64,000 nucleotides of DNA, from assembly GCF_003063665.1 (NCBI RefSeq), contig NZ_NESF01000004.1:62001-126000 (forward strand), read 5' to 3'. A program made the position numbers and the translations under genes. Positions 16,667 to 21,891 of this stretch are shown one piece after another. Below the pieces are notes generated by a model, which searched no databases, had not been told where the DNA came from, and saw only the letters and a program-made list of their open reading frames with translations. How positions within the stretch are numbered: position 1 is the stretch's first letter; every line of letters begins with the position of its first letter. Source of the stretch: Limnohabitans sp. Hippo3. Its GTDB lineage: Bacteria; Pseudomonadota; Gammaproteobacteria; Burkholderiales; Burkholderiaceae_C.

Positions 16667-17737
16667 ATGAAAATCGCAGTCCTCCCCGGTGATGGCATCG
16701 GCACCGAAATCGTCGCCGAAGCCGTCAAAGTCCTGAACACACTCGACCTGAAGTTCGAGATGGAAACCGCCCTGGTCGGCGGCGCCGCGTACGACGCCTA
16801 TGGCCACCCCCTGCCCGAGGCCACGCTGAAGCTGGCGATGCAGTCTGATGCCGTGCTGTTTGGCGCGGTCGGCGACTGGAAATACGACAAGCTCGACCGC
16901 CCCCTGCGCCCTGAACAAGCGATTTTGGGCCTGCGCAAAAACATGGGCTTGTTCGCCAACTTCCGCCCCGCCATTTGCTACGAGCAGCTGGTAGGCGCCT
17001 CCAGCCTCAAGCCCGAGCTGATTTCGGGTCTGGACATCCTGATCATCCGCGAGCTGACGGGCGACATCTATTTTGGCCAGCCACGCGGTCGCCGCGTGGC
17101 CACAGACGGGCACTTCCCCGGCGCCGAAGAAGCGTTTGACACCATGCGCTACAGCAAGCCCGAGATTGAGCGCATCGCCCATGTGGCCTTCCAGGCCGCC
17201 CGCAAACGCAACAAGCGCCTGACCAGCGTGGACAAGGCCAACGTGCTCGAAACCTTCCAGCTTTGGAAAGACGTGGTCACCGAAGTCGGCCGGCAGTACC
17301 CCGACGTGGCGCTGGACCACATGTATGTGGACAACGCGGCCATGCAGCTGGTCAAGGAACCCAAGCGCTTTGACGTGGTGGTCACCGGTAATATGTTCGG
17401 CGACATCCTGAGCGACGAAGCCTCGATGCTGACCGGCTCGATCGGCATGCTGCCCTCGGCCAGTCTGAACACGAAAAATCAGGGGCTGTACGAGCCCAGC
17501 CACGGCAGCGCCCCCGACATCGCAGGCAAAGGCGTGGCCAACCCACTGGCCACCATCCTGAGCGCCGCCATGATGCTGCGCTTCAGCCTGAACCAGGAAG
17601 AAGCCGCCCAGCGCATCGAAGCGGCGGTACAAAAAGTACTGGCCCAGGGCCTGCGCACAGGCGACATCTGGAGCGAAGGCACCACCAAGGTGGGCACCGC
17701 GCAAATGGGCGATGCGGTGGTCAAGGCCCTCGGCTGA
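16667..17737 (+). CDS. leuB: 3-isopropylmalate dehydrogenase
   Basis: A 356-residue NAD-dependent oxidative decarboxylase of the third leucine step. [23 protein letters not shown] opens the isocitrate/isopropylmalate dehydrogenase fold. Substrate arginines fall in [22 protein letters not shown] and [12 protein letters not shown], the catalytic Lys in SVDKANVLE, and metal Asp residues in [18 protein letters not shown]. The adenine-binding [20 protein letters not shown] is intact. The only nearby start is the ATG at 16667, 17 bases after the palindrome, without a clear ribosome site. A terminator follows. Confidence 0.96.
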
Positions 17738-17813: not shown

Positions 17814-19568
17814 TCAGTGCTGCCCCATGCGCACCAACCGCCCGGGGCGTGCTTCGGTGATCGCACCGCCCTGCTGAACCGCCTCACCCGCGACCCAGGT
17901 GGCCACATAGCCTTCGGCCTTTTGCACAAAGCGTTTGCCGCCTGCGGGCAAGTCGCGCACCAATCGGGGCAAGCCCACGCTCAGGCGGGCCGGGTCGATG
18001 GCATTCAGATCGGCCCGCATGCCTTCGGCAATCACGCCCCGGTCTGACAAGCCCAGGTAACGGGCATTGCGGCGGGTCAGCATTTCCACCGCGGTTTCGA
18101 GCGGGATCGCGTCCCGCCCCCGGTCCCGGACCCAATGGGTGAGCATGAAGGTGGGAAAGCTGGCATCGCACACCGTGCCCACGTGCGCGCCCGCATCGCT
18201 CAAGCTGCTGAGCGCCCGGGGATGGTCCAGCATGCGGCGTACCGTGTCGAGCGAGCCCTCGTTGTAGTTGAAGATCGGGAAATAAATCAGCCCCTCGCCG
18301 TTTCCCGCGCACAGGTGGTCGTAAATCACGGCCAGCGGCGAGACACCCGCCTGCTTGGCACGCACCAGAAAACTCTGCATCACCGAGGGCTCGTAGTTGA
18401 GGTTGCCCTCGAGCGCAAACATACGCCCACTGATCAGGTCAATCTTGGCCAACAAAATGTCCACCAACGGCGGGATTGCGCTGCCGTCTCCGGCCAGGCG
18501 TTCGGACTTTTCAGACAGGATGCGCGCCTTGCGGGCCGGATCGCGCAAGGCTTCGGCCCGCTGTGCCAGCGGCAGATGGGCCACTTCTTTGTAGGACGGG
18601 AACCCCATAAAAGGGTGAAAGCTCGCGTCCAGCCCATTGATCACGCCGATGCCGCGGACAGCGGTTTGCAGGAACAAGGGCAGCCCCGCCTTCACGGCCG
18701 CCTCGACCCGCTGCTGGATCTTCAGGTATTGCTCGCCGCCCGGATCGCGCTGCAACCAGGTCAGCGACACGTGCCTGCCGCTCGCACGCGCGAGCGCCTC
18801 CACACAATCGAACTCGGCATCAAACTGCTCCGGACCGCTGAGCAAGTTGTAATCGCTCACCACCTGGATCACCCCGTGGTTCAGCCCTTCAAAAGCCTGC
18901 GCCAGCCCGGTCAACTCGTCGTGGCCCGCATTGGCCGCAGGCGTGTCCTTGCCCTCGGACGTGCGGTGGTTGTCGCTGCGCCCGGTGCTGAAGCCGGCAG
19001 CGCCCGCCTGCAGGGCCTCGCGCAGCAGGGCCTGCATGACCCGGATGTCGTCGGCATTGGCCTGCTCATGGGCCTGCGCCCGCTCGCCCATCACATACAT
19101 GCGCAAGGGGTCATGCGGCACCTGCACCAGGTAGTCCAGGCTGCGCGGCGTGGCTGCCAGCGCGTCCATGTACTGCGGAAAGGTCTCCCAGTTCCAGCGG
19201 ATGCCTTCGTGCAAAGCCGCGCCCGGGATATCCTCCACACCTTCCATCAGCTTGATCAAATCATCCTCATGGCCGGGGCGTTTGGGGGCAAAACCCACGC
19301 CGCAGTTGCCCATGACCAGCGTGGTCACACCGTGGTAAATGCTGGGCGTGAAGCATTCGTCCCAGGTCACTTGCCCGTCGTAGTGGGTGTGGATGTCCAC
19401 AAAACCCGGGGTGATCCACAAGCCCGTCGCATTCAGGGTTTGCCGGGCGGGCTCGTCCACCTGGCCCACCGCCACAATGCGGCCGCCGCGCACCCCCACA
19501 TCGGCCACGCGCGCAGGCGCGCCCGTGCCGTCGACCACGGTGCCATTTTTAATCAACCAATCGAGCAT
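17814..19568 (-). CDS. N-acyl-D-amino-acid deacylase-like amidohydrolase
   Basis: A 584-residue metal-dependent hydrolase of the D-aminoacylase branch of the amidohydrolase superfamily. It begins MLDWLIKNGTVVDGTGAPARVADVGV. The HxH metal motif is in GFVDIHTHYDGQVTWD, and TTLVMGNCGVGFAP carries the bridging Cys typical of D-aminoacylases. SDAGAHVGTVCDASFPTFMLTHWVRDR and a C-terminal ADLNAIDP complete the fold. It would hydrolyse N-acyl-D-amino acids or a related amide; the substrate is not certain. GGAGAAAAAAAG precedes its ATG, which lies inside the end of the transporter gene (20-bp overlap), so the two are one operon. Confidence 0.85.
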   Translation of the reverse strand: MLDWLIKNGTVVDGTGAPARVADVGVRGGRIVAVGQVDEPARQTLNATGLWITPGFVDIHTHYDGQVTWDECFTPSIYHGVTTLVMGNCGVGFAPKRPGHEDDLIKLMEGVEDIPGAALHEGIRWNWETFPQYMDALAATPRSLDYLVQVPHDPLRMYVMGERAQAHEQANADDIRVMQALLREALQAGAAGFSTGRSDNHRTSEGKDTPAANAGHDELTGLAQAFEGLNHGVIQVVSDYNLLSGPEQFDAEFDCVEALARASGRHVSLTWLQRDPGGEQYLKIQQRVEAAVKAGLPLFLQTAVRGIGVINGLDASFHPFMGFPSYKEVAHLPLAQRAEALRDPARKARILSEKSERLAGDGSAIPPLVDILLAKIDLISGRMFALEGNLNYEPSVMQSFLVRAKQAGVSPLAVIYDHLCAGNGEGLIYFPIFNYNEGSLDTVRRMLDHPRALSSLSDAGAHVGTVCDASFPTFMLTHWVRDRGRDAIPLETAVEMLTRRNARYLGLSDRGVIAEGMRADLNAIDPARLSVGLPRLVRDLPAGGKRFVQKAEGYVATWVAGEAVQQGGAITEARPGRLVRMGQH

Positions 19569-20424
19569 CTTTTTTTCTCCAATACAGGGCCAGGCCCATG
19601 CCGCTCACGATGTGCCAAATGCCCCATAGGCTGGCCAGCGTGACCATGCCCAGATCGCTGCCAAACTGCACCGCGATGATGCCCAGCGCCAGGCCCGAGT
19701 TCTGCATGCCGCCTTCGATCATGATGGCCCGGCGGTCCCGCTCGCTCACGCGCATGGCCAGGCTGGTGGCCCAACCCAGAAACAGGCCGCTGGCGTTGTG
19801 CATCACCACCAGCAGCAAAGTGGGCAAGAGGCCCAGTGTCAGCAACTGCCGCTCCTTGATGAGCCCCGCCACGATGAACAAAATCAAAGCGCCCACCGCA
19901 AAGTGGCCCAGCGGCTTGCGGATGCGCTCGGTCAACGCAGGCAGTCGGTGCGAGAAGACCAAACCCAGCGCCAGGGGGATGCCCAGCAGCAGCACCAGAC
20001 TCAGCCAGATGCCGGACGGGTCGATCGACAACTGGCGCAACCAGGACGCGGTTTCAGGGTTGGCCGCGATCATCCAGCTGAAGTTGAAGGGCGTGGCAAA
20101 GAGCGCGATCACGCTGGCCACGGCCGAGATGCTCACCGACAGCGCGGTGTTGCCCCGCCCCATGTGGGTCACCACATTGCTCAGGCTCCCGCCCGGGCAG
20201 GCGGCCACCAAAATCATGGCCGCCTCGATGTTGGCGGGCAAATCCAGCGCCAGCGTGGCCAGCCAGGTGCCCACGGGCAACAAGATGAACTGGGGAATCA
20301 GCCCGCAGACCACCGCACGGGGGGTTTGGGCCACGCGGCGGAAATCCTCGATTCGCAGCTCCAGTGACACCGAAAACACCATGGTGGCCAGCACCAGGCT
20401 CAAAACCAGTTGTTGTGAAGTCAT
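19549..20424 (-). CDS. Bile acid:sodium symporter (BASS)-family transporter
   Basis: A 291-residue membrane protein with about nine hydrophobic segments. The family core is visible as ACPGGSLSNVVTHMGRGNTALSVSISAVASVIALFATP, the two-sodium-site region, and later EGGMQNSGLALGIIAVQFG. Members move bile acids, pantoate, 2-keto acids or other organic anions with Na+; the cargo here is unknown. It is the first gene of a two-gene operon with the D-aminoacylase-like protein, which suggests uptake of a compound the hydrolase then splits. AAAGGACAT precedes the ATG. Confidence 0.85.
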   Translation of the reverse strand: MTSQQLVLSLVLATMVFSVSLELRIEDFRRVAQTPRAVVCGLIPQFILLPVGTWLATLALDLPANIEAAMILVAACPGGSLSNVVTHMGRGNTALSVSISAVASVIALFATPFNFSWMIAANPETASWLRQLSIDPSGIWLSLVLLLGIPLALGLVFSHRLPALTERIRKPLGHFAVGALILFIVAGLIKERQLLTLGLLPTLLLVVMHNASGLFLGWATSLAMRVSERDRRAIMIEGGMQNSGLALGIIAVQFGSDLGMVTLASLWGIWHIVSGMGLALYWRKKDARLVD

Positions 20425-20552
20425 TCGTATGTCCTTTCAAAAAGTATAGACAACGCCAGACCTCTGACCACAAAGGGTTTACGCGCAGGCGTGCCTGCAC
20501 GGCGACAACCCGGTGCCCACCGCACCCGTCAGGCACGCACAAGGCAATCCGG

Positions 20553-20558
20553 TACAAT
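20553..20558 (+). promoter_or_regulatory. -10 element for the asd leader transcript
   Basis: TACAAT lies eight bases before the leader-peptide ATG; there is no good -35 box at 16-18 bp. If it is used, transcription would start at or within two or three bases of the ATG, making the leader peptide mRNA essentially leaderless. Confidence 0.45.
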
Positions 20559-20566
20559 GCCACCCC

Positions 20567-20668
20567 ATGTTCTACGCCCGCCTGTTCTCCCTGAACCCGA
20601 TCACTGCCGCTGCAGCGACGGCCGGTGCGCGTGCAATCACCACCAAAACCACGACCATTAAGGGCTGA
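20567..20668 (+). CDS. Putative Thr/Ile-rich leader peptide of asd
   Basis: A 33-codon reading frame ending 92 bp before asd. Its last eleven residues are AITTKTTTIKG, with five Thr and two Ile in ten codons, followed by TGA. The pattern matches amino-acid attenuation leaders such as E. coli ThrL, and Asd is on the threonine/isoleucine/methionine/lysine pathway. It has no Shine-Dalgarno and sits eight bases after a TACAAT, so it may be translated from a leaderless start. Downstream, mutually exclusive stems can be drawn, though without a classic T-run terminator. Attenuation is inferred; no homologue was checked. Confidence 0.65.
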   Translation: MFYARLFSLNPITAAAATAGARAITTKTTTIKG

Positions 20669-20676
20669 TCCGGCCT

Positions 20677-20738
20677 GGTTCGTCGTGCGCCCCTCCCGGC
20701 CAGACGAGCCGGGCAAACAGTCAGGTCAAACACTGTTT
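20677..20738 (+). promoter_or_regulatory. Possible attenuator structures upstream of asd
   Basis: Hairpin A is CCCGGC (20695-20700) with GCCGGG (20708-20713), loop of seven. The alternative pairing B, GGTTCGTC (20677-20684) with GACGAGCC (20703-20710), uses part of the same bases, so A and B exclude each other. Hairpin C is AAACAGT (20715-20721) with ACTGTTT (20732-20738), running into TTTT. C is weak for an intrinsic terminator, so the control could be Rho-dependent or translational. Drawn by eye; energies were not computed. Confidence 0.35.
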
Positions 20739-20760
20739 TAAAAACTGAAAGGGCGTTGAA

Positions 20761-21891
20761 ATGAGCAAGTTAGTAGGTTTGGTCGGCTGGCGCGGCATGG
20801 TCGGCTCGGTATTGATGGACCGCATGGTTCAGGAAAAAGACTTCGACCTGATCGAACCGGTCTTCTTTTCCACATCCAACGCAGGCGGCAAAGCCCCCGC
20901 GATGGCCAAGAACGAAACCACGCTGCAAGACGCACATAACATCGACGCCCTCAAGCGCTGCGAGATCATCATCACTGCCCAAGGCGGCGACTACACCTCT
21001 GAAGTCTTCCCCAAGCTGCGCGCGGCTGGCTGGACTGGCCACTGGATTGACGCGGCTTCGACCCTGCGCATGGAAAAAGACGCGGTCATCATCCTGGACC
21101 CGGTGAACATGCCCGTGATCCAAAACGCCCTGGCCCACGGTGGCAAGAACTGGGTGGGCGGCAACTGCACCGTATCCTGCATGCTGATGGGCGTGGGCGC
21201 ACTCTACAAAGCCGGCTTGGTGGAGTGGATGAGCACCCAGACTTACCAGGCGGCATCGGGTGGCGGCGCACAACACATGCGCGAGCTGCTGACCCAATAC
21301 GGCACATTGAATGCCGAAGTCAAAGCCTTGTTGGACGACCCCAAGAGCGCCATTCTCGAAATCGACCGCAAGGTGATCGCCAAGCAGCGCGCCCTGACCG
21401 GTGCCGAGACCGCCAACTTTGGCGTGCCGCTGGGTGGCTCGCTGATCCCCTGGATCGACAAGGATCTCGGCAACGGCATATCCAAAGAAGAGTGGAAGGG
21501 CATGGCCGAAACCAACAAGATTCTGGGCATGGGTGAGTCTTTTGGCACTTCCGCTATCCCCGTGGACGGTTTCTGCGTGCGTGTGGGTGCCATGCGCTGC
21601 CACAGCCAGGCTCTGACTTTCAAGCTGAAAAAAGACGTGCCCGTGGCCGACATCGAAGCCATGATCGCCGCCGACAACGAGTGGGTCAAAGTGGTGCCCA
21701 ACACCCGCGAAGCCACCATCCGCGACCTGACCCCCGTGGCCGTGACCGGCACCATGACCATTCCCGTGGGCCGTGTGCGCAAGCTGGCCATGGGCCCCGA
21801 GTACGTGGGCGCGTTCACCATCGGTGACCAGCTGCTGTGGGGCGCGGCCGAGCCGCTGCGCCGCATGCTGCGCATCCTGCTCGACGCTTGA
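20761..21891 (+). CDS. asd: Aspartate-semialdehyde dehydrogenase
   Basis: A 376-residue NADP-dependent enzyme reducing aspartyl phosphate to aspartate semialdehyde, the branch point for lysine, methionine, threonine and isoleucine. [18 protein letters not shown] is the cofactor loop. The catalytic Cys is C136 in [10 protein letters not shown], and the His/Arg active-site segment is [16 protein letters not shown]. It belongs to the Gram-negative (E. coli-like) class. GAAAGGG lies before the ATG. A Thr/Ile-rich small frame precedes it and fimV follows after 30 bp. Confidence 0.97.

Follow-up and report, generated by a model that had tools for sequence, protein, structure and literature searches.

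In the window, the 64,000-nucleotide stretch of Limnohabitans sp. Hippo3 DNA analysed here, the short reading frame directly ahead of asd is probably the leader of a ribosome-mediated attenuator that senses charged threonine, isoleucine and lysine tRNAs. We read it as a leaderless, multivalent attenuator responsive to the aspartate family of amino acids and acting mainly on translation. The comparative data support an amino-acid leader of asd, apparently leaderless and with a read-out that would be unlike that of E. coli. The first-pass annotation of this DNA had described a 33-codon frame rich in threonine and isoleucine just before asd, and the frame was confirmed. The locus contains the following features.

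leuB: ATG at 16667, stop codon at 17735-17737, TIGR00169 match.
20553-20558, forward strand: TACAAT, a −10-like box 8 nt upstream of the leader ATG, conserved in relatives.
20567-20668, forward strand: leader peptide frame MFYARLFSLNPITAAAATAGARAITTKTTTIKG, ATG at 20567, TGA at 20666-20668, 33 codons.
20636-20662, forward strand: candidate sensor codons ATC ACC ACC AAA ACC ACG ACC ATT AAG (I T T K T T T I K), a segment that is Thr/Ile/Lys-rich in all four lineage groups.
20747-20756, forward strand: Shine-Dalgarno (SD) region of asd, GAAAGGGCGT, the GGGCGT of which can pair with an anti-SD element.
20761-21891, forward strand: asd, aspartate-semialdehyde dehydrogenase, TIGR01745 (asd_gamma), E 1.1e-181.

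Judged from their translations, the frames upstream of leuB are taken to be putative leuC and leuD. Two reverse-strand genes (17814-20424), by eye putatively amidohydrolase-like and sodium/bile-acid-symporter-like, sit between leuB and the asd leader, unlike the arrangement in many relatives, where the end of leuB lies within a few hundred bases of asd. The nearest named relatives of the locus belong to Limnohabitans and other Comamonadaceae.

The start of the leader has the features expected of a leaderless frame, namely a −10 box placed for transcription to begin at the ATG and no SD sequence, with a −35 element lacking. As the annotation had it, the ATG follows TACAAT by eight bases. The exact TACAAT-N8-ATG pattern occurs once in the window and, with one mismatch allowed, twice against 3.84 expected, which is not above chance, so that the weight of the argument rests on the relatives. 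Among 83 leaders with an N-terminus of the window type, TACAAT is found upstream of 73, the best −10-like hexamer lies 6-9 nt 5' of the ATG in 81, and an SD-like motif precedes only one. This spacing in the absence of an SD appears to be the geometry of a leaderless transcript. Transcription is predicted to start at, or adjoining, the A of the ATG, and we infer that the leader RNA probably begins with the first base of the frame and is translated without an SD. The box is strongly conserved (for example, within window positions 20520-20558) in surroundings where no −35 consensus was found (mean best score 2.56 of 6 over 82 sequences, compared to 2.70 in shuffles) and where an extended −10 was sought 5' of the leaders without success.

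The comparison draws on the best 80 of 595 named asd loci, on upstream regions from 100 of the 200 listed genomes of the window's family, and on an order-level sample of 69 of 150 genomes (29 loci and 40 regions), two of which fall within that family. A leader was called free when its frame ended 60-185 nt before the asd match and its last 12 residues held at least 3 Thr and at least 4 Thr plus Ile, and fused when the LeuB tail was 7 or more residues long and included 2 or more Thr. Labelled in this way by composition, the 183 family loci (distinct upstream sequences, some of them near-copies; L203 removed and L199 added by hand) comprise 107 with a free leader, 58 with a LeuB tail and 18 with neither, two of the 18 having too little upstream sequence; the sequence was too short at L025 and L074. 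Within the best 80 of the named loci, 77 carry the run (66 as a free leader and 11 as a LeuB tail), and two of the other three have no upstream sequence.

The window leader ends in ITTKTTTIKG, with 5 Thr and 2 Ile among its last ten codons, and this ending is what the relatives preserve. In the 83 free leaders with the window-type N-terminus (MF.AR.F.LN-like), Thr occupies codons −6, −5 and −4 in 80, 82 and 78 cases, respectively, Ile occupies −3 in 82, and Lys is found at −2 in 77 and at −7 in 72. The remaining 24 free leaders have other N-termini and nearly all end in the same kind of run. Across the four lineage groups, Thr accounts for 27-39%, Ile for 13-22% and Lys for 15-20% of the last 12 codons, where the Thr and Ile percentages of free leaders are partly given by construction because the definition requires these residues, whereas Lys was not required. 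In the same 12 codons Met is not enriched, and Met, Asn, Pro and His are rare. By sequence, the Lys codons thus appear to belong to the sensor set along with those for Thr and Ile. Since Asd acts upstream in the synthesis of all three amino acids, a multivalent sensor is plausible.

Outside the window's family the same make-up recurs in different sequences. In family f31, where at least 5 Thr plus Ile in the last 14 residues were demanded, the 30 best loci from 57 matched genomes include 23 at which a free leader with another N-terminus precedes asd, and these leaders contain 33.5% Thr, 25.2% Ile, 17.4% Lys and no Met; in family f13, leaders with N-termini unlike that of the window are present in all three genomes. 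The 67 loci from elsewhere in the order include 5 with a leader (two from f31 and three from f13) and 62 without. The annotation had attached an amino-acid leader to asd and held that a lack of conservation of the frame or of its Thr/Ile run in relatives would count against it; both are conserved, and the comparative data support such a leader, with Lys added to Thr and Ile.

The codon argument has to be separated from one based on nucleotide composition. The stretch is A- and C-rich in all groups, and within the leader clade its 3' end is constrained at the DNA level, synonymous sites included, as would be expected if it were an unstructured translation enhancer or a Rho site in which the codons are incidental. 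The synonymous-change comparison, which the annotation had proposed alongside a search for conserved Thr and Ile codons, did not separate these possibilities: within that clade, pN/pS is 0.69 in the leader frame and 0.66 in a shifted frame, so that selection on the peptide is not shown in this way and the codon argument rests on comparison between lineages. There, the Thr and Ile codons are indeed conserved, and in strict phase: Thr, Ile and Lys are in frame 0, Thr makes up at most 1.4% of the two other reading frames, and there are almost no Asn (AAY), Pro or His codons in frame 0, Asn and Met being nearly absent from the run although their codons are A-rich as well. Moreover, diverged tails and the other families keep the amino acids with other orders and codons. 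We accordingly regard a purely compositional role as very improbable.

The near invariance of KTTTIKG among window-type leaders could also point to nascent-chain arrest of the SecM type, whereby the conserved end of the peptide would itself stall the ribosome on another signal. In the fused tails and the other families, however, order and length vary (9-23 residues in the tails) while the Thr/Ile/Lys content is kept, which fits a codon sensor but not a fixed arrest motif. In addition, the last residue follows the pairing of the RNA. An arrest peptide is, on balance, very unlikely, and we retain the reading of the run as a codon sensor.

A second form of the same sensor appears to be attached to LeuB. 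An ordinary LeuB ends in GDAVVKALG or GDAVVAAL, whereas the fused proteins run on in frame, for example with GDAVVAAITKTITKG, GDAVVAAITTTTKTIKS or GDAVVAAVQSGTAAGATSTTKTTKTIKS. The 58 tails, for which composition was recalculated on the 183-locus set, contain 27.0% Thr, 17.6% Lys and 14.7% Ile, compared to 4, 5 and 5% in the body of LeuB. Fused LeuB frames stop 75-127 nt upstream of the asd match, at distances similar to those of the free leaders, and the two forms are never combined in the 70 loci where a free leader accompanies a visible LeuB, the longest LeuB ending among them being 6 residues. On a tree of LeuB sequences from which the tail had been left out, the fused and free labels require 5 and 4 changes, whereas shuffled labels require 40.3 and 37.5 on average; each form is therefore mostly confined to one side of the sampled family. 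Support for this tree is weak, with 44 of its 115 internal branches open and an unsettled bootstrap, and it does not fix the direction between fused and free.

C-terminal tails can serve as degradation or sorting signals, and the tail might accordingly be a feature of the LeuB protein (stability or assembly) with its likeness to the free leader secondary. Such a feature would not account for the tail and the leader never occurring in one locus, for the matching distance to asd or for the company that both keep: of 165 loci that have a leader or a tail, 150 show the downstream stem motif, against 1 of 16 loci that have neither. We consider this explanation to have hardly any probability. It seems instead rather likely, with somewhat less confidence than we attach to the leader itself, that in dozens of genera the C-terminal tail of LeuB is an attenuator peptide for amino-acid sensing, that ribosomes finishing LeuB set asd expression, and that the free leaderless leaders are a detached form of this tail or its source. 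Apart from this, the last 130 bases before asd at locus L115 contain the stem motif with neither a leader nor a LeuB tail, possibly as a relic.

The RNA between the leader stop codon and asd contains several elements that can pair with one another.

20663-20675, forward strand: small hairpin over the stop codon, GGCUG(AUC)CGGCC, in 160 of 161 sequences against a shuffled mean of 81; the set was chosen via a list of allowed last codons, so that the test is informative on the partner base and not on the last codon.
20673-20684 with 20703-20714, forward strand: hairpin H1 (strand a with strand c), inner pairs 20686-20687/20701-20702 and 20689-20691/20698-20700, predicted ON state.
20687-20692, forward strand: anti-SD element GCGCCC, predicted partner 20751-20756.
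20695-20713, forward strand: hairpin B (strand b with strand c), CCCGGC(CAGACGA)GCCGGG, in which 20695-20700 pairs with 20708-20713, predicted OFF state.
20715-20738, forward strand: hairpin T, AAACAGU/ACUGUUU (20715-20721/20732-20738), possible weak terminator.

The two competing stems of the annotation (20677-20684 with 20703-20710, against 20695-20700 with 20708-20713) were found where it had placed them; the first, GGTTCGTC with GACGAGCC, is part of the 12-bp helix 20673-20684/20703-20714, and H1 and B are mutually exclusive because both use strand c. In folding, segment 20660-20745 outperforms all 200 of its dinucleotide shuffles (z −3.61), and 20660-20775 outperforms 196 of 200 (z −2.45). 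An anti-SD element with core GCCC lies between strands a and b; its complementarity to the SD reaches at least 5 bp, with G-U allowed, in 95 of the 103 free sequences and 26 of the 54 fused ones, and is retained despite sequence changes (GCGCCC/GGGCGT, ACGCCC/GGGCGT, TCGCCC/GGGCGA, TGCCCTT/AAGGGTG and GCGCCT/AGGCGT). In the own genome of the window, the stem pattern occurs once, as does a backward control, and similar leaders were sought ahead of hom and lysC without any being found.

Covariation, which the annotation had expected in the stems, is borne out in part. In the hairpin over the stop codon, AGC is accompanied by U (25 sequences), GGC by C (81) or U (52) and CGC by G (2). In the group in which strand c is GCCAGG, strands a and b both read CCUGG, and one column of c shows two-sided changes toward a in 11 of 88 sequences and toward b in 9 of 88. 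Elsewhere the a:c and b:c cores are nearly invariant, hence covariation is sparse there and clearest in the stop hairpin and the SD pairing. An RNAalifold run on 78 rows, spoilt by gaps, returned 8 pairs, covering part of H1 only and none two-sided, and a scan for mutual information picked up mostly lineage signal.

Folding with the ribosome in different positions predicts a switch in the window. All the structures are thermodynamic predictions; in the free state the RNA was open from six bases before the stop codon, and in the masked state it was hidden to 12 bases past the start of that codon. Between the free RNA and the ribosome at the stop codon, H1 falls from 1.00 to 0.00, a loss of a:c pairing that is partly built into the folding model, while B rises from 0.00 to 1.00 and pairing of the SD from 0.00 to 0.97. 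When the ribosome front was moved in steps of three, the window flipped only between first free bases at stop+9 and stop+12, which in the model corresponds to a ribosome at the stop codon with all the sensor codons decoded. Among the 106 members of the 161-sequence set in which all elements could be located (window included), masking the strand raised SD pairing in 72 and lowered it in none. Loss of access to the SD by more than 0.3 was seen in 19 of 40 sequences drawn from 118 usable ones as the set for the shuffle control, and the reverse in 0 of 40, compared to 6 and 11 of 240 shuffles. Accessibility of AAAGG showed no trend (38 up and 34 down of 161), after which we adopted a measure based on the actual pairing bases, GGGC; its access is 0.31 on average and 0.51 in the window with the 5' strand free, and 0.04 and 0.0, respectively, at stop+12.

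The exclusive structures set by ribosome position that characterize leaders of the thrL type are thus predicted in the window and many relatives, but no SD switch is predicted in the 36 fused relatives outside the Hydrogenophaga-like group, and the 16 Hydrogenophaga-like fused sequences show only a weak one, largest with the ribosome front just at the stop codon. The fused read-out may therefore differ. In a number of fused loci (L129, L143, L145, L149, L150, L152 and similar ones), strand b (CUGGACCCC) may, by eye, also pair with a GGGGUCCGG located between it and the asd SD; this alternative stem is absent from the window.

The read-out could also be intrinsic termination at hairpin T, as in a thrL-like transcription attenuator, and not pairing to the SD. 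T does respond to ribosome position, rising from 0.01 to 0.83 in the window and increasing in 45 of 56 sequences with no decreases, and in some Acidovorax, for example L028, a stronger T stem stands, by eye, before a U-rich stretch. In the window, however, the T stem is AU-rich and is not followed by a U-tract, and a terminator scan called neither T nor any other terminator-like site on the forward strand between the leader and asd, in agreement with the annotation, which had found no classic terminator T-run; the intrinsic terminator of the thrL type is thereby lacking, T being weak. Furthermore, T is missing, by eye, from the fused and some of the free rows of the alignment, and the anti-SD complementarity is the broader feature. 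Termination as the main read-out is unlikely, although we leave it a real minority share of the probability, and the predicted read-out that we prefer is sequestration of the asd SD, in line with the suggestion of the annotation that the mechanism may differ from that of E. coli.

From these elements we infer both the stalling and the direction of the response. The front of a ribosome lies about 15 nt beyond the first base of its P site. With ample Thr, Ile and Lys, the sensor codons would be decoded fast, and the ribosome would arrive at the stop codon and cover the start of strand a (20673-20678); strand c would then pair with b to form hairpin B, and the freed GCGCCC would pair with GGGCGU in the asd SD and turn asd down. 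In the free-leader group, hairpin T may add transcription termination. A ribosome stalled on a Thr, Ile or Lys codon would keep its front short of strand a, so that H1 would form, hold the anti-SD element inside and allow asd to be translated. Because H1 is the more stable fold, the OFF state must either be brought about by a ribosome at the stop codon or be decided kinetically. In the fused relatives, ribosomes finishing LeuB would do the sensing, and the RNA read-out is less clear there.

Several known systems share parts of this design. The closest is thrL, which precedes thrABC in E. coli and Vibrio and consists of a frame with Thr and Ile codons followed by competing stems, as described in PMC12925634. 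The asd leader resembles thrL in its short frame with end-product codons near the end, in the competing stems and in a target within the aspartate pathway; it differs in that it targets asd, includes Lys codons, has no SD and no clear terminator, and can be fused to LeuB. For E. coli, ArgP is reported to stimulate asd transcription, with Lys counteracting this effect (PMC12925634). The predicted leaderless start has a counterpart in trpL of Sinorhizobium meliloti, where the attenuator RNA is described as beginning at the ATG of the leader peptide (PMC7298713), although that system belongs to an alphaproteobacterium and another gene and relies on Trp codons and a transcription terminator. Leaderless leaders, including a thrL before thrS, are also described in Streptomyces lividans, several of them without a clear terminator (PMC8079986); the asd leader is similar in its leaderless organization, its amino-acid codons and the lack of a clear terminator, whereas the S. 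lividans leaders have other genes and sequences, and no enzyme fusion is mentioned in the available part of that source. The LEU element of Actinobacteria, described from computation in PMC1262725, likewise has a leader peptide with end-product codons and a target-gene SD that is engaged in base pairing. Its SD partner is the codon run, whereas in the asd leader this role is predicted to fall to a separate GCGCCC past the stop codon.

Database searches returned no match of the leader in Pfam or NCBIfam and none in Rfam, the threonine leader included, even at E up to 10 for 20540-20780. The lysine riboswitch (RF00168) was found in 0 of 60 genomes of the family (53 of them at least 90% complete; stricter filters), with 4 of 14 control genomes positive. 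In the main text of a survey of premature terminators, asd and threonine are absent (PMC2965389). At the level of titles and abstracts, the literature yielded no recognised asd attenuator, no report of the LeuB tail and no amino-acid attenuator fused to an enzyme; an earlier prediction in the comparative attenuator studies Lopatovskaya 2010 or Vitreschak 2004 is possible.

If this reading is correct, a single sensor at a branch-point enzyme would serve three end products of the aspartate pathway in a family without a detected lysine riboswitch. The LeuB tails would show regulatory codons inside a metabolic enzyme, moving between a free leader and a protein tail, and through this exchange one could trace how an attenuator leader arises or is lost; extra enzyme tails without an explanation in other genomes might be read likewise.

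Two further observations concern Asd and LeuB individually. At L110 and L208 (both from genus g3 of family f1), Asd shares only about 70% identity with the Asd of the window, yet the same type of leader and stems precedes it, as though the leader had been conserved while the gene behind it diverged or was exchanged. At L215 and L241 (family f22), LeuB contains an internal run, ATKTTK, shortly before its normal C-terminus, which may be due to chance or represent a related device.
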